In this document: positions 614-16,558 of the stretch, piece by piece | How positions within the stretch are numbered: position 1 is the first letter of the stretch | How the letters are laid out: each line of letters begins with the position of its first letter | Assembly: GCA_013215375.1 (NCBI GenBank) | Contig: JABSRB010000001.1 | Location: 1-64,000 of the forward strand | DNA length: 64,000 bases | DNA from: Oceanospirillaceae bacterium | Lineage (GTDB): Bacteria; Pseudomonadota; Gammaproteobacteria; Pseudomonadales; Balneatricaceae | Direction: 5' to 3' | Notes under the pieces: generated by a model | What the model saw: only the letters and a program-made list of their open reading frames with translations | Database searches by the model: none | Told to the model about the DNA's origin: nothing | Made by a program: the position numbers and the translations under genes

Positions 614-1975
614 CTATTGGCGCAACTGCTCTAATACTGGTGCTCGCAGCGAGATAAGCGGGGGGATTAGTGCAAACACTGCTGAGCCTGCACAAAAAAT
701 AGCTAATAGATGCCACTCTTGCCAATTCAGCGTAGCTTCAATGTTAATGTTAATCTCACTGGATATATAAGCTGATATTGTCTTGGTTAAGAAGACTGCA
801 ATTAACAGCCCTACAATCGCACCTAAACTAATAAGTGACGCCGCATATCCCCAGATTACTGCGTAGATATACCTTTTTGGTGCCCCTACCGCACTTAACA
901 TAGCGATATGTTTTGAAAAGAGTCTATTTAATATCACAAAGCTGGTCATAACACTTATAACGACTAACACTTGAGTAACTATTCCCAGTATTGAAATCAG
1001 CTTTTGCACATCTCCAATAATACGATGCAATTCAGACAATACGCTCCCTGGGAAAAATGCCATAGAGCTTGTCGTGGTAAATTCTCTTTTCAATGCATAA
1101 TTGGCCATGAGTTTTTTGGCTTTAATCACCACAGCTTGCGCGCCGTGAAAACCATTAGCGCTAAACGGTGGCCCCAGCTTTGTTAGCTTGTTCTCTCTTT
1201 CGTGGTCTTCTTCTTTATCGAGGTTAGCTCTACCTATAGAGTGTACAGACCATACCCCCTCTATTGGCACCAAGATTGCTTTATCCCAAGGCGTTCCTGT
1301 ATACGGCATCTTACCGACAATTTTATAGGAGTGATCTTTATGATGATCTACGTTCCTTACGCTTAACTTGAGCTGCTTGGCACTTACATGTTCGGGAGAG
1401 AAAAAGTCTCCTATAGATAACTGCGTTGAAAATCCAATAACAGCTTGTTGCTCACTTTCAAATAACTTACCTGCTAATTCCCCTTTGGCCAGATGCTCAA
1501 TAAAATCAGCGGTTGTTCCGACAATGACTGCACCTTGATATGAATCTCCAAAGGCTAAAGGTGCTGCCATTTCAACCTGTGGATGCTGAAAAATTTTATG
1601 ATAAATTTCACCATTTAATAACGGCATTTCATTTTTCTGTAAATAAACTACCGACATTAATGCACTTACTTTTCCGCCTGGAGAAGTAACAATCAGATCA
1701 AAATTTCCCGCAGCTTTAGCACTCGCCTCTCGCAGTCCTCGTTCTTGTGCAGTCAAACTAAGACTCATGGCAACCGATATGCCAATTAAACTTATAAAAG
1801 CTAAATTTATATATGCAAAGCGGACCATCATCGCTTTAATCAATAGAAAAGGAGCTTGTCTAAAAAATAATAGACAAGCTATAACGCTGGGGATGGCTAG
1901 CAAAATTGCTAAAATTATAATATCTTGTTGATCAGCAGACCGTGTGAGCCAATAATCACTAAAAGGGTTTAACAT
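614..1975 (-). CDS. ABC transporter permease, FtsX/MacB type
   Basis: A 453-residue inner-membrane permease. Hydrophobic segments lie at about 19-38 and 54-74, then a large non-membrane region (about 75-320), then three more near the C-terminus (about 325-350, 370-397, 425-445). The last four segments and the large periplasmic domain match the MacB/LolC/FtsX family; the first is an additional N-terminal segment. These permeases use ATP hydrolysis to work on substrates in the periplasm or membrane (lipoproteins, peptides, copper-related factors) rather than as a simple channel. It is the last gene of a three-gene operon, 5 nt after its ATPase. The substrate is not evident. Confidence 0.8.
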   Translation of the reverse strand: MLNPFSDYWLTRSADQQDIIILAILLAIPSVIACLLFFRQAPFLLIKAMMVRFAYINLAFISLIGISVAMSLSLTAQERGLREASAKAAGNFDLIVTSPGGKVSALMSVVYLQKNEMPLLNGEIYHKIFQHPQVEMAAPLAFGDSYQGAVIVGTTADFIEHLAKGELAGKLFESEQQAVIGFSTQLSIGDFFSPEHVSAKQLKLSVRNVDHHKDHSYKIVGKMPYTGTPWDKAILVPIEGVWSVHSIGRANLDKEEDHERENKLTKLGPPFSANGFHGAQAVVIKAKKLMANYALKREFTTTSSMAFFPGSVLSELHRIIGDVQKLISILGIVTQVLVVISVMTSFVILNRLFSKHIAMLSAVGAPKRYIYAVIWGYAASLISLGAIVGLLIAVFLTKTISAYISSEININIEATLNWQEWHLLAIFCAGSAVFALIPPLISLRAPVLEQLRQ

Positions 1976-13566: not shown

Positions 13567-14721
13567 CTAGTTAAAAGCGCGCAATTTTGTCACTGTATCG
13601 ACGATTAACTGCCCGACAAATTCAACTTCTTCCACCGTGGTAAACCGACCGATGGAGATCCTTAAAGACCCATGCGCCTGCTCATCGCTCAGGCCTATTT
13701 GCTTAAGCACATACGAGGGTTCTAAACTCGCTGAGGTACAAGCAGATCCTGTCGATACCGCGATGTCTTTAAGAGACAACAGCAACATTTCCCCATCCAT
13801 TGCACCAAAACATACATTTAGGTTCCCCGGCACTCTATTTTCAATACCGCCATTCAAGCTGACACCCTCTAACTGCTGTAGCTTATTCCAGAGCATATCT
13901 CTTAATTGTGTCAGTTTTAGCTGCTGCTGTTCAAGTTCGGCACCCGCAATCGCAAAAGACTCCCCCATCCCCACCAACTGATGGGTAGGCAAAGTACCAG
14001 AGCGCATGCCACGCTCGTGACCGCCACCATGAATCTGCGCTTTGATGCGCACTTTGGGCTTTTGCCGTACATACAAAGCCCCAACACCTTTAGGGCCATA
14101 TATTTTGTGGGCGCAAAAGGACATCATATCCACATCTAACTGCGCTAAGTTGATCGCAATCTTGCCCACTGACTGCGCTGCATCCACATGAAAACACACC
14201 GCTTTTTTGGCGCAAACTCGCCCTAACGCCGCGATATCATTAATCGTCCCTATTTCATTATTGACATGCATGAGACTGACCAGAATAGTATCTTCGCGGA
14301 TGGCTGCCGCTAATTGATCAACACTAATACAGCCATCGGCACCGGGCTTTAAATAAGTAACGTCAAAACCTTGCTGTGCCAGTTCCGCACAAGTATCTAG
14401 TACTGCTTTATGCTCAACGGTACTAGTAATAATATGCTTACCAATCGCCTCTTTTTGCAGAGCAAGGCCTTTAATTGCCAAATTATTTGACTCTGTCGCC
14501 CCGGAAGTCCAGACGATTTCTCGATTTTGAGCCCCTACCAAATCAGACACTTGACGACGCGCTCGCTCCACCGCCTCCTCAGATTTCCAACCATACACAT
14601 GAGATCTTGAGGCGGGGTTAGCAAAATTGCCATCCATAGTAAGGCAGCCCATCATCGCCTCTGCCACTCGTGGGTCGACAGGAGTACTCGCTGCATAATC
14701 CAAATAAACAGGTAATTTCAT
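13567..14721 (-). CDS. iscS: Cysteine desulfurase IscS, C-terminally shortened
   Basis: 384 residues, PLP-dependent. Lys206 (HKIYGPKG) binds PLP and Cys328 (TGSACTSAS) carries the persulfide; both fall at the same numbers as in E. coli IscS, so the alignment is essentially gap-free. It stops about 20 residues early and lacks the C-terminal segment that contacts IscU. iscR, iscU, iscA, hscB, hscA and fdx are all absent around it. It follows trmJ with no gap. It probably supplies sulfur for tRNA thiolation and perhaps cofactors; a role in Fe-S assembly through a distant iscU is not excluded. Confidence 0.93.
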
Positions 14722-15507
14722 TTAATTATCCAACTCTTTTTTCGACTGACTAATATTTTTAATACTTTTATCAACGCTGGTTAAAATGCCACGCAAAATA
14801 TTCACCTCAATACTATCCGGTAGCGCGCGCATGATTAAGCGTCTGACCCTGGTCATTAACTGCCGCGGTTTCTGCGGATCTAGAAAACCCGTTTTTAATA
14901 CGGTCTGCTCCAAATGAGAGAACAATAAATCCAACTGATCTTGTGTTGCTAGAGGCGCATCCCACTTAGTGCCCCACTGTGGAGATGGCAGCGCATTTTG
15001 CGCAAGGAAGCTCATACGCAATTCGTAGGCAATCACTTGTACTGCCGAGCCAATATTTAAGGAACTAAAAGCTTCGACAGAGGGAATACAGACATGATGC
15101 TGGCACAGATGTAATTCATCATTGGTCAAACCTCGATCTTCGCGACCAAACACTATCGCCAGCTTTTTACTTGGATTAGCTTTCTTCGCCTCGCCAACGA
15201 CAGCTGCCATTTCCCGGGGATCCATAATTGGCCAGGGGATATGACGCGCTCTTGCGCTTGTAGCAAACACCAACTCACAGTCTTTAATGGCCTCCTGCAA
15301 ACTTGCCACTCTAGTCGCTTGAGACAACACATCATCCGCACCCGCTGCACGAGCAGAGGCTTCTTCACTTGGGAAACTTTTTGGATCAACCAATACTAAA
15401 TCAGTCATCCCCATATTTTTCATGGCACGTGCTACCGCCCCGATGTTCCCAGAATGCGTAGTATTTACTAGGACAATTTTTATTTCTGTATACACAAACT
15501 TACCCAA
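14722..15507 (-). CDS. trmJ: tRNA (cytidine/uridine-2'-O-)-methyltransferase TrmJ
   Basis: 261 residues, SPOUT (SpoU) family. The N-terminal domain begins with the typical IKIVLVNTTHSGNIGAVARAMK segment split by the family Asn/Arg positions; the knot motifs are VFGREDRGLTNDEL and SSLNIGSAVQV. The C-terminal helical tail resembles TrmJ. It 2'-O-methylates position 32 of several tRNAs. Adjacent to suhB (divergent) and iscS, the conserved neighbourhood. Confidence 0.93.
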   Translation of the reverse strand: MGKFVYTEIKIVLVNTTHSGNIGAVARAMKNMGMTDLVLVDPKSFPSEEASARAAGADDVLSQATRVASLQEAIKDCELVFATSARARHIPWPIMDPREMAAVVGEAKKANPSKKLAIVFGREDRGLTNDELHLCQHHVCIPSVEAFSSLNIGSAVQVIAYELRMSFLAQNALPSPQWGTKWDAPLATQDQLDLLFSHLEQTVLKTGFLDPQKPRQLMTRVRRLIMRALPDSIEVNILRGILTSVDKSIKNISQSKKELDN

Positions 15508-15757: not shown

Positions 15758-16558
15758 ATGCAGCCAATGCTTAACATAGCCCTTCGGGCAGCTCGCCTAG
15801 CCAGCGAACAAGTACAACACGCACAAGGAAAAGTGGAAATTATTCGCTCTGAAAAAAGCGAGATCTCTGAACTTATTGAAGAGACAGCTATTAGTGCGGA
15901 AAAAACCATCGCATACACTATCCAAAAAGCTTTCCCGAATCATGCTCTGCAAGGTGAGTACTCCGGAGACTATGCCTCTGCGGGCAGCAAAACAGAAGCC
16001 ACTTGGCACATGAGCGCCTTTGACAACCTCGCTAACTTCTCCAACGGCGTACCGCAAATTGCTATTTGCCTAGCCGCGACGATTAACGGAAAAATACAGC
16101 ACGCAGTTATTATCAACCCTGTAACCGGTGAAGAATTCACTGCGAGCCGTGGTTACGGCGCTATTTTAAACGGACGCCGAATCCGTGTCACTGACTGTAA
16201 AGGCCTTGAGAACAGCACTATTTCTACAAACTTTGCAGACAATAGTGGCGACAAGGGACTACTGGACAAGCATTTAAACATGACGGCCAAATTGCACGCG
16301 AATCGTGGTATTTTACAAAACACTGGATCTGCCGCACTCAATTTTGCCAGTGTAGCAGCCGGTCGTATCGATGGCAGCTATGCGGACAACTTGCAGATTG
16401 CCACCACGCTTGCCAGCGCACTGCTTATCCAAGAAGCAGGCGGCCTAGCTGGTGACCTGAATGGCGAGCCGAACTTCAAGAAATCTAAAAGCCTTGCCAC
16501 TGGCAACGCCAAAGTTTTCAAAGCGCTTATTCAAGCTGTACACCACAGCGCAAAATAA
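15758..16558 (+). CDS. suhB: SuhB-like protein with degenerate inositol-monophosphatase active site
   Basis: 266 residues. The start ATG 15758 gives MQPMLNIALRAAR, matching the SuhB N-terminus; an upstream in-frame ATG (15692) adds 22 unlikely residues. The IMPase fold is recognisable throughout (RGYGAILNGRRIRV, TGSAALNFASVAAGRIDG, LLIQEAGG). The Glu ligand (Glu67) and one Asp (Asp89) remain, but the WxxDPxDGTxNF motif reads WHMSAFDNLANF at 83-94: ligand Asp is Ser86 and catalytic Thr is Leu91. The WD before the C-terminal helix is Ala215-Thr216. It is very likely not a phosphatase. In E. coli the rRNA-antitermination role of SuhB with NusA does not need catalysis. Divergent from trmJ. Confidence 0.88.
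   Translation: MQPMLNIALRAARLASEQVQHAQGKVEIIRSEKSEISELIEETAISAEKTIAYTIQKAFPNHALQGEYSGDYASAGSKTEATWHMSAFDNLANFSNGVPQIAICLAATINGKIQHAVIINPVTGEEFTASRGYGAILNGRRIRVTDCKGLENSTISTNFADNSGDKGLLDKHLNMTAKLHANRGILQNTGSAALNFASVAAGRIDGSYADNLQIATTLASALLIQEAGGLAGDLNGEPNFKKSKSLATGNAKVFKALIQAVHHSAK

Follow-up and report, generated by a model that had tools for sequence, protein, structure and literature searches.

The window, by which we mean the whole 64,000-nucleotide stretch of DNA that was analysed, carries a gene for a protein of the inositol-monophosphatase (IMPase) fold, preceded by two genes on the opposite strand:

13567..14721, minus strand: iscS-type cysteine desulfurase gene, adjoining trmJ
14722..15507, minus strand: trmJ, divergently oriented beside suhB and a marker of this locus, in an arrangement as in E. 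coli K-12; its start codon is unsettled
15758..16558, plus strand: suhB, 266 amino acids, a catalytically degenerate SuhB/IMPase-fold protein (Pfam PF00459, 104.8 bits)

The suhB frame is open throughout and its product begins with MQPMLNIALRAAR. Between positions 13567 and 15507 the iscS-type gene abuts trmJ with iscR absent between them, a point on which E. coli K-12 differs, and an Rfam scan of the window returned no match.

Four segments of the protein correspond to the catalytic site of its relatives; their ranges are given below along the window protein, and individual positions here and throughout follow the numbering of E. coli K-12 SuhB, the alignment reference:

15863..15889, plus strand: residues 36-44, ISELIEETA, the former motif-1 loop (SNDFVTNVD in E. 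coli), with D38 changed to E and D44 to A
15947..15970, plus strand: residues 64-71, LQGEYSGD, with the ligand E67 kept and E68 changed to Y; five of the six congeners have Q at 67
16004..16039, plus strand: residues 83-94, WHMSAFDNLANF, in which the IMPase signature WxxDPxDGTxNF is destroyed, D84 being changed to S and T89 to L, with D87 kept
16382..16420, plus strand: residues 209-221, ADNLQIATTLASA (EIGLRPWDFAAGE in E. coli), with E205 changed to A, W211 to A and D212 to T

The map of metal ligands and substrate contacts was transferred from Mycobacterium tuberculosis SuhB, for which the accessible part of the source describes Mg sites formed by Glu83, Asp104, Asp107 and Asp235 together with a carbonyl, a phosphate contacted by Gly108/Thr109 and an inositol contacted by Glu228 (PMC2080633). 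Read against this map, the window protein keeps two of the four acidic ligands, E67 and D87, and lacks D84 and D212. The DPxDGT signature, including the catalytic Thr, reads SAFDNL, with P85 changed to A, L86 to F and G88 to N in addition to the substitutions listed above, and R184 is replaced by N. The signature motif is letter for letter that of the sister species (90% identical), and in the remaining five congeners it is WYIS..D, so the loss is due neither to chance nor to a sequencing error. These alignments make it nearly certain that the enzyme site has been lost. The first-pass annotation had placed the frame and its motif correctly and had counted two of the four metal ligands as gone, which the changes at D84 and D212 confirm, further active-site residues being lost as well; its second Asp ligand has indeed become a Thr, the residue that it called Thr216 being position 212 in E. 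coli numbering.

By sequence comparison the gene is the orthologue of suhB, an assignment made in the first-pass annotation and borne out by trmJ linkage, N-terminus, alignment and gene tree. The protein aligns with SuhB over its full length (31% identity to the E. coli protein) and carries the N-terminal pattern M[QH]PM.NIA.RAAR; in the PDB it is matched best by P. aeruginosa SuhB (E 1.2e-56), with E. coli SuhB next. The motif RR.GSAAL, typical of SuhB according to the accessible part of PMC5516325, is present in part, the window reading QNTGSAALN with GSAAL kept and RR gone. Among NCBIfam models the one for SuhB, PRK10757, scores highest, with 155 bits; its equivalog cut-off of 332 must be regarded as narrow because an intact Pseudomonas SuhB, at 322, also falls below it. 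Adjacency of trmJ and suhB was seen in 34 of the 36 genomes read from the window's family, suhB lying at a contig start in one of the two misses, and in all three degenerate loci of other families that had enough flanking sequence. In a SuhB gene tree, all 22 degenerate sequences fall within the SuhB clade (98/84) and form a single group (92/82), with long branches present.

The loss of the site is old and wide in the order. We drew 145 genomes from 47 families, of which 136 had a match and 105 of these were read (none from families f28 and f31; f3 gave no match), and added 36 genomes of the window's own family. The resulting survey of 137 genomes from 44 families gave 63 degenerate proteins, 73 intact ones (counting two doubtful orthologues, G112 and G049) and one cut off by a contig end. 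The 63 degenerate genomes fill eight families, none of them mixed, and the 73 intact ones make up 35 families; all 36 genomes read from the window's family are degenerate. T89, R184 and E205 are lost in every degenerate genome, and the metal ligands that remain number two in 20 genomes (among them the window protein and those of 18 others of its family), one in 42 and none in one. Among 80 named loci, 14 are degenerate (L037-L049 and L057) and 66, mostly from Pseudomonas and relatives, are intact. Closest among the named records are Oceanospirillaceae/Nitrincolaceae metagenome-assembled genomes (MAGs) and symbionts of the bone worm Osedax, followed by Neptunomonas, Marinobacterium, Neptuniibacter, Balneatrix and Pokkaliibacter, and all 14 share the degenerate site. 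The lineage is not Cellvibrionales, as proposed at first, nor is the loss confined to one lineage, as had been supposed, since it extends to seven other families of the order; the family and order surveys rule out that it is limited to the genus or to Cellvibrionales.

A class-wide sample of 114 genomes had matches in 106, and the 40 low-scoring ones that were read comprised 39 intact proteins and one degenerate one; this reading passed over the partial matches G208, G238, G256 and G266, as well as G096, which had already been read as intact. The degenerate case (L360, G259:C5:8868-9619) lies elsewhere in the class, in a genome of 1.4 Mb that is 82% complete, and encodes a SuhB with WYIEAINGQENF and STIELA that retains MKPILNIALRAAR and NPKLFKACLQ. 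From its sequence, it is possibly a further loss of the SuhB site.

Within the genus, the degenerate suhB is under strong purifying selection. The four genus pairs with dS below 1.5 gave dN/dS values of 0.048, 0.069, 0.045 and 0.036 at dS 0.62, 0.95, 1.37 and 1.45, the last being the window against its sister species, and the 17 other pairs of the 21, with dS above 2 or saturated, gave 0.056-0.131 where a value could be computed. The frame is open to the C-terminus in all seven genus genomes, one of which ends about three residues early. The predicted structure of the window protein has a pLDDT of 91.1 and a pTM of 0.89 (from a 30-row alignment); the solved folds nearest to this model are those of P. 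aeruginosa SuhB, with TM scores of up to 0.94, and its predicted TM scores against E. coli SuhB, including the chains in the SuhB-NusA AR2 and rrn complexes, are 0.84-0.90.

The part of the protein through which SuhB contacts NusA in E. coli has a clear counterpart in the window:

16502..16537, plus strand: C-terminal helix, residues 249-260, GNAKVFKALIQA, in which K255 and I258 correspond to K251 and L254 of the E. coli protein

In E. coli, K251 and L254 bind the AR2 repeat of NusA, and replacing both by Ala (K251A/L254A) weakens this binding, the Kd going from 94 nM to 141 uM (PMC6614801). The first of the pair is identical in the window protein and the second is a conservative change. Across the 63 degenerate genomes, position 251 is basic without exception (K in 58, R in 5) and position 254 is L in 37, V in 15, I in 7, T in 2, A in 1 and M in 1. 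As position 251 is about equally conserved in the intact SuhBs of the order (basic in 68 of 73, and in 16 of the 39 intact class genomes read), this is retention and not gain, and a basic residue typical of the order would appear to have outlived catalysis.

A broader view of what was retained came from 84 positions conserved to at least 90% across 71 intact sequences, compared with the 63 degenerate sequences weighted by family; this set excludes G046 (the cut-off protein), the weak, doubtful orthologues G112 and G049/f15, named loci and duplicate sequences. Of these positions, 25 stay at 80% or more in the degenerate set, including P3, R13, W81, P119, E124, G130, G132, N136, R139, R141, L190, E222, G224, G232 and K251, with P3, W81, E124, G130, G132, N136, R139, R141, E222 and G224 at 97-100%. 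The 35 that drop below 50% cover the metal, phosphate and substrate sites and many positions around them.

Of the partners with which a Nus factor would work, NusA AR2 and, in related genomes, boxA are still there. Among 60 family genomes, 59 have both C-terminal repeats of NusA and the exception is 71% complete; the NusA of the window genome has both, AR2 included; AR2 aligns in all 20 NusAs examined from degenerate genomes, in one of them (G041) in shortened form. A search with 12 bases and at most two mismatches, run on 18 degenerate genomes, found boxA-like sites in the rRNA leader of 9 of the 11 that had a 16S gene (the misses being G134 and G168) and in the spacer of all 11; the leader sites lie 149-227 bases before 16S, where shuffled sequence would yield 0-0.04 per leader, a control that covers the leader only. 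Both intact control genomes carry leader and spacer boxA-like sites as well. Neither 16S rRNA nor rpoB was found in the assembly of the window genome, given as 95% complete, and rpoB of this genome was set aside as a tree marker because the gene is absent there; an rpoB match is likewise absent in G007 and G143.

In the window genome, six matches to PF00459 comprise suhB, one CysQ (TIGR01331, 301 bits, above cut-off), two intact-motif IMPase-fold genes that fall below every curated cut-off, and two pieces of one broken gene. The broken gene (G000:C19:49264-49844, L005 and L006) lies by sugar-nucleotide genes and is split by a stop or frameshift, its pieces still matching PF00459. A second SuhB, which the first-pass annotation had named as the finding that would overturn its reading if it were intact and carried the antitermination residues, was sought in this 95%-complete assembly by PF00459 search, reading of the matches, models and a paralogue search, and none was found. 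In a wider reading of 38 IMPase-fold loci (36 distinct), a subset of the matches found, every protein has DPxDGT and none has the SuhB N-terminus. One kind among the IMPase-fold genes stands out by its distribution, its reference copy being:

G019, 911-1681, minus strand: L145, intact IMPase-fold paralogue with DPIDGTVNFA; relatives at L427-L430 and L432-L444

Relatives of this paralogue, which has the motif DPIDGTVN[FY]A, occur at 45% identity or above in 16 of the 22 degenerate genomes asked (G019 counted), with each of the eight families represented, and in none of the 11 intact genomes asked, where the best match is the SuhB gene itself at 36-41%. In the order draw, which we take to be the 145-genome SuhB draw (same size and same listed handles, 99 of the 119 match-free genomes being unlisted), it occurs at E <= 1e-52 in 26 of 32 degenerate genomes and in no others, the co-occurrence being clustered on the tree and so not a count of independent events. 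By family, it was found in 1 of 5 genomes of f1, 5 of 5 of f6, 1 of 2 of f7, 4 of 4 of f20, 3 of 4 of f27 and 4 of 4 in each of f37, f38 and f44.

Of 21 rows entered as paralogues in the gene tree, G011b and G125b proved to be of other kinds, and the remaining 19 form one clade (97/98) outside that of SuhB, which gives no support to an origin as a duplicate of the degenerate SuhB. Aligned to the reference, 18 of the 19 keep the whole catalytic site, G162 having Ala at position 84; position 251 is basic in 3 of the 18 that cover this stretch, and 15 of the 18 lack K251. Within the window's family the paralogue was seen in G019 and G011 only, and it is absent in the window genome and in G003, G007, G017 and G021, so that, short of its own later disappearance there, it cannot account for the SuhB site loss in the window's sub-lineage.

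The number of losses in the order is undecided between one and two on the two trees. In a RpoB+NusA tree of 31 genomes and E. coli, six of the degenerate families (f1, f6, f7, f20, f27 and f38) form one clade (ultrafast bootstrap 77; SH-aLRT 95 in a rerun without the window genome), f37 is unplaced and f44 falls among intact families (98 and 71), which would mean two changes; when the degenerate rows were constrained to a single clade in the rerun, the likelihood fell by 25.5 log units (AU p = 0.056). The SuhB gene tree, built from 22 of the 63 degenerate and 22 intact SuhBs, has the degenerate sequences in one group, recovered in 88% of 200 bootstrap trees, which would mean one loss, and its long branches may attract each other.

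SuhB is a moonlighting protein, being both an enzyme and a transcription factor. The combination of a lost site with strong selection on the gene suggests that only the role in rRNA synthesis was worth keeping, and we consider it likely that SuhB has been kept in these families as a Nus factor, in the complex for rRNA antitermination and rRNA folding, without IMPase catalysis. The fold and the C-terminal helix that binds NusA AR2 would have been preserved for the rRNA transcription complex, and the three-Mg site, the catalytic Thr and the substrate Glu would have decayed. The first-pass annotation had suggested that antitermination alone was kept; the conservation pattern fits a Nus role, which may be the sole one left. 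Several observations count against the reading of a Nus factor without catalysis, namely that the window protein still has E67 and D87, D87 being kept throughout its family; that residues away from the active site have drifted too; and that position 254 is L in little more than half of the degenerate genomes. The universal loss of R184 is a further such point, an R184A variant having reportedly been used in earlier structural work.

As an intact IMPase-fold enzyme is present in most families with a decayed SuhB, the enzyme and Nus jobs may be divided between two proteins, the window genome being without the separate enzyme. We give about even chances to the fuller version of this split, in which the trmJ-linked SuhB is the Nus factor, a second enzyme took the phosphatase role or had already freed SuhB from it, and the Mg site is dispensable for rRNA synthesis, most of the window's family having later lost the second enzyme or never had it. 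If SuhB did give up catalysis and stay a Nus factor in this way, the Nus role would be the real constraint on SuhB in the order.

One alternative that we regard as unlikely is that the pocket was repurposed to bind a ligand or protein without hydrolysis, making SuhB a sensor or regulator, perhaps in the transcription complex. Constancy within the window's family would suit it, with D87 kept in 36 of 36 genomes, D118 changed to N in 32 and position 84 being N in 18 and S in 12, as would W81, E222 and G224, which stand at 100% in the degenerate set; across the eight families, however, the former pocket residues vary freely (E67 to R, L or Q; T89 to Q, E, R or N), as expected of relaxed constraint rather than of one new ligand. 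It is quite improbable that the protein still works as a phosphatase, on a different substrate or with different metals or ligand residues: although the window protein and 18 other family genomes retain two ligands and the predicted fold is intact, each of the 63 degenerate genomes has lost the catalytic Thr and the substrate Glu along with two or more ligands, the lost residues stand at 98-100% in the 71 intact sequences, and a separate intact enzyme co-occurs in most degenerate genomes.

We attach very little weight to the idea that the gene is a paralogue, the true SuhB being lost or lying in an assembly gap. The PRK10757 score would allow it, being below the cut-off and lower even than the 165 bits of the intact paralogue L145, but an intact Pseudomonas SuhB is under the same cut-off; trmJ linkage, N-terminus and best PDB matches all point to SuhB, and the 22 degenerate sequences sit inside the SuhB clade, apart from the paralogue. 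Genes often decay in a host-associated setting, and some congeners are named as Osedax symbionts, yet simple decay of the gene in such a lineage is hardly credible given a frame open in 7 of 7 genus genomes at dN/dS 0.036-0.069, values that rule out a pseudogene, and a loss common to all 14 nearest named records, including Neptunomonas, Marinobacterium, Balneatrix and Pokkaliibacter.

Families without the enzyme site but with SuhB amount to a natural separation-of-function experiment. They point to the surfaces that the transcription role may need, namely the N-terminal helix, R139/R141, E222/G224 and the C-terminal K251 helix, and to those that it may not, the Mg site and R184; if the paralogue did take over the enzyme job, they would also provide a clean example of division of labour. 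The annotation as inositol monophosphatase is probably wrong for the degenerate SuhBs of these families. The literature that we searched holds no report of degenerate SuhB lineages, most subscription papers being outside its scope and novelty thus unproven.

Among known systems, a close one is E. coli K-12 SuhB, Nus factor and inositol-1-monophosphatase (PDB 2QFL, 6IB7, 6IB8, 6TQN), which the window protein resembles in its end-to-end alignment, trmJ neighbourhood, N-terminal helix, K251-type C-terminal helix and predicted fold, and from which it differs in lacking D84, T89, E205, D212 and R184, the E. coli protein having a full Mg site. According to the accessible parts of the sources, the IMPase activity of E. 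coli SuhB is not needed to relieve the effects of suhB mutants (PMC6614801) and a link between the enzyme activity and the rRNA role is left open (PMC4807359). The closest solved relative is P. aeruginosa SuhB (PDB 9J90, 8WIP, 8WDQ; 39% identity in the structural alignment, TM 0.94), which differs in its intact WVIDPLDGTTNF and EWD motifs and for which, by the title of 8WDQ, a structure with inositol-1-phosphate exists. M. tuberculosis SuhB shares the fold family but is an active Mg-dependent IMPase. The L145-type paralogue, finally, is of the same superfamily and co-occurs with the degenerate SuhB, from which it is set apart by its own clade, by a catalytic site kept in nearly all copies and by the absence of the SuhB N-terminus.
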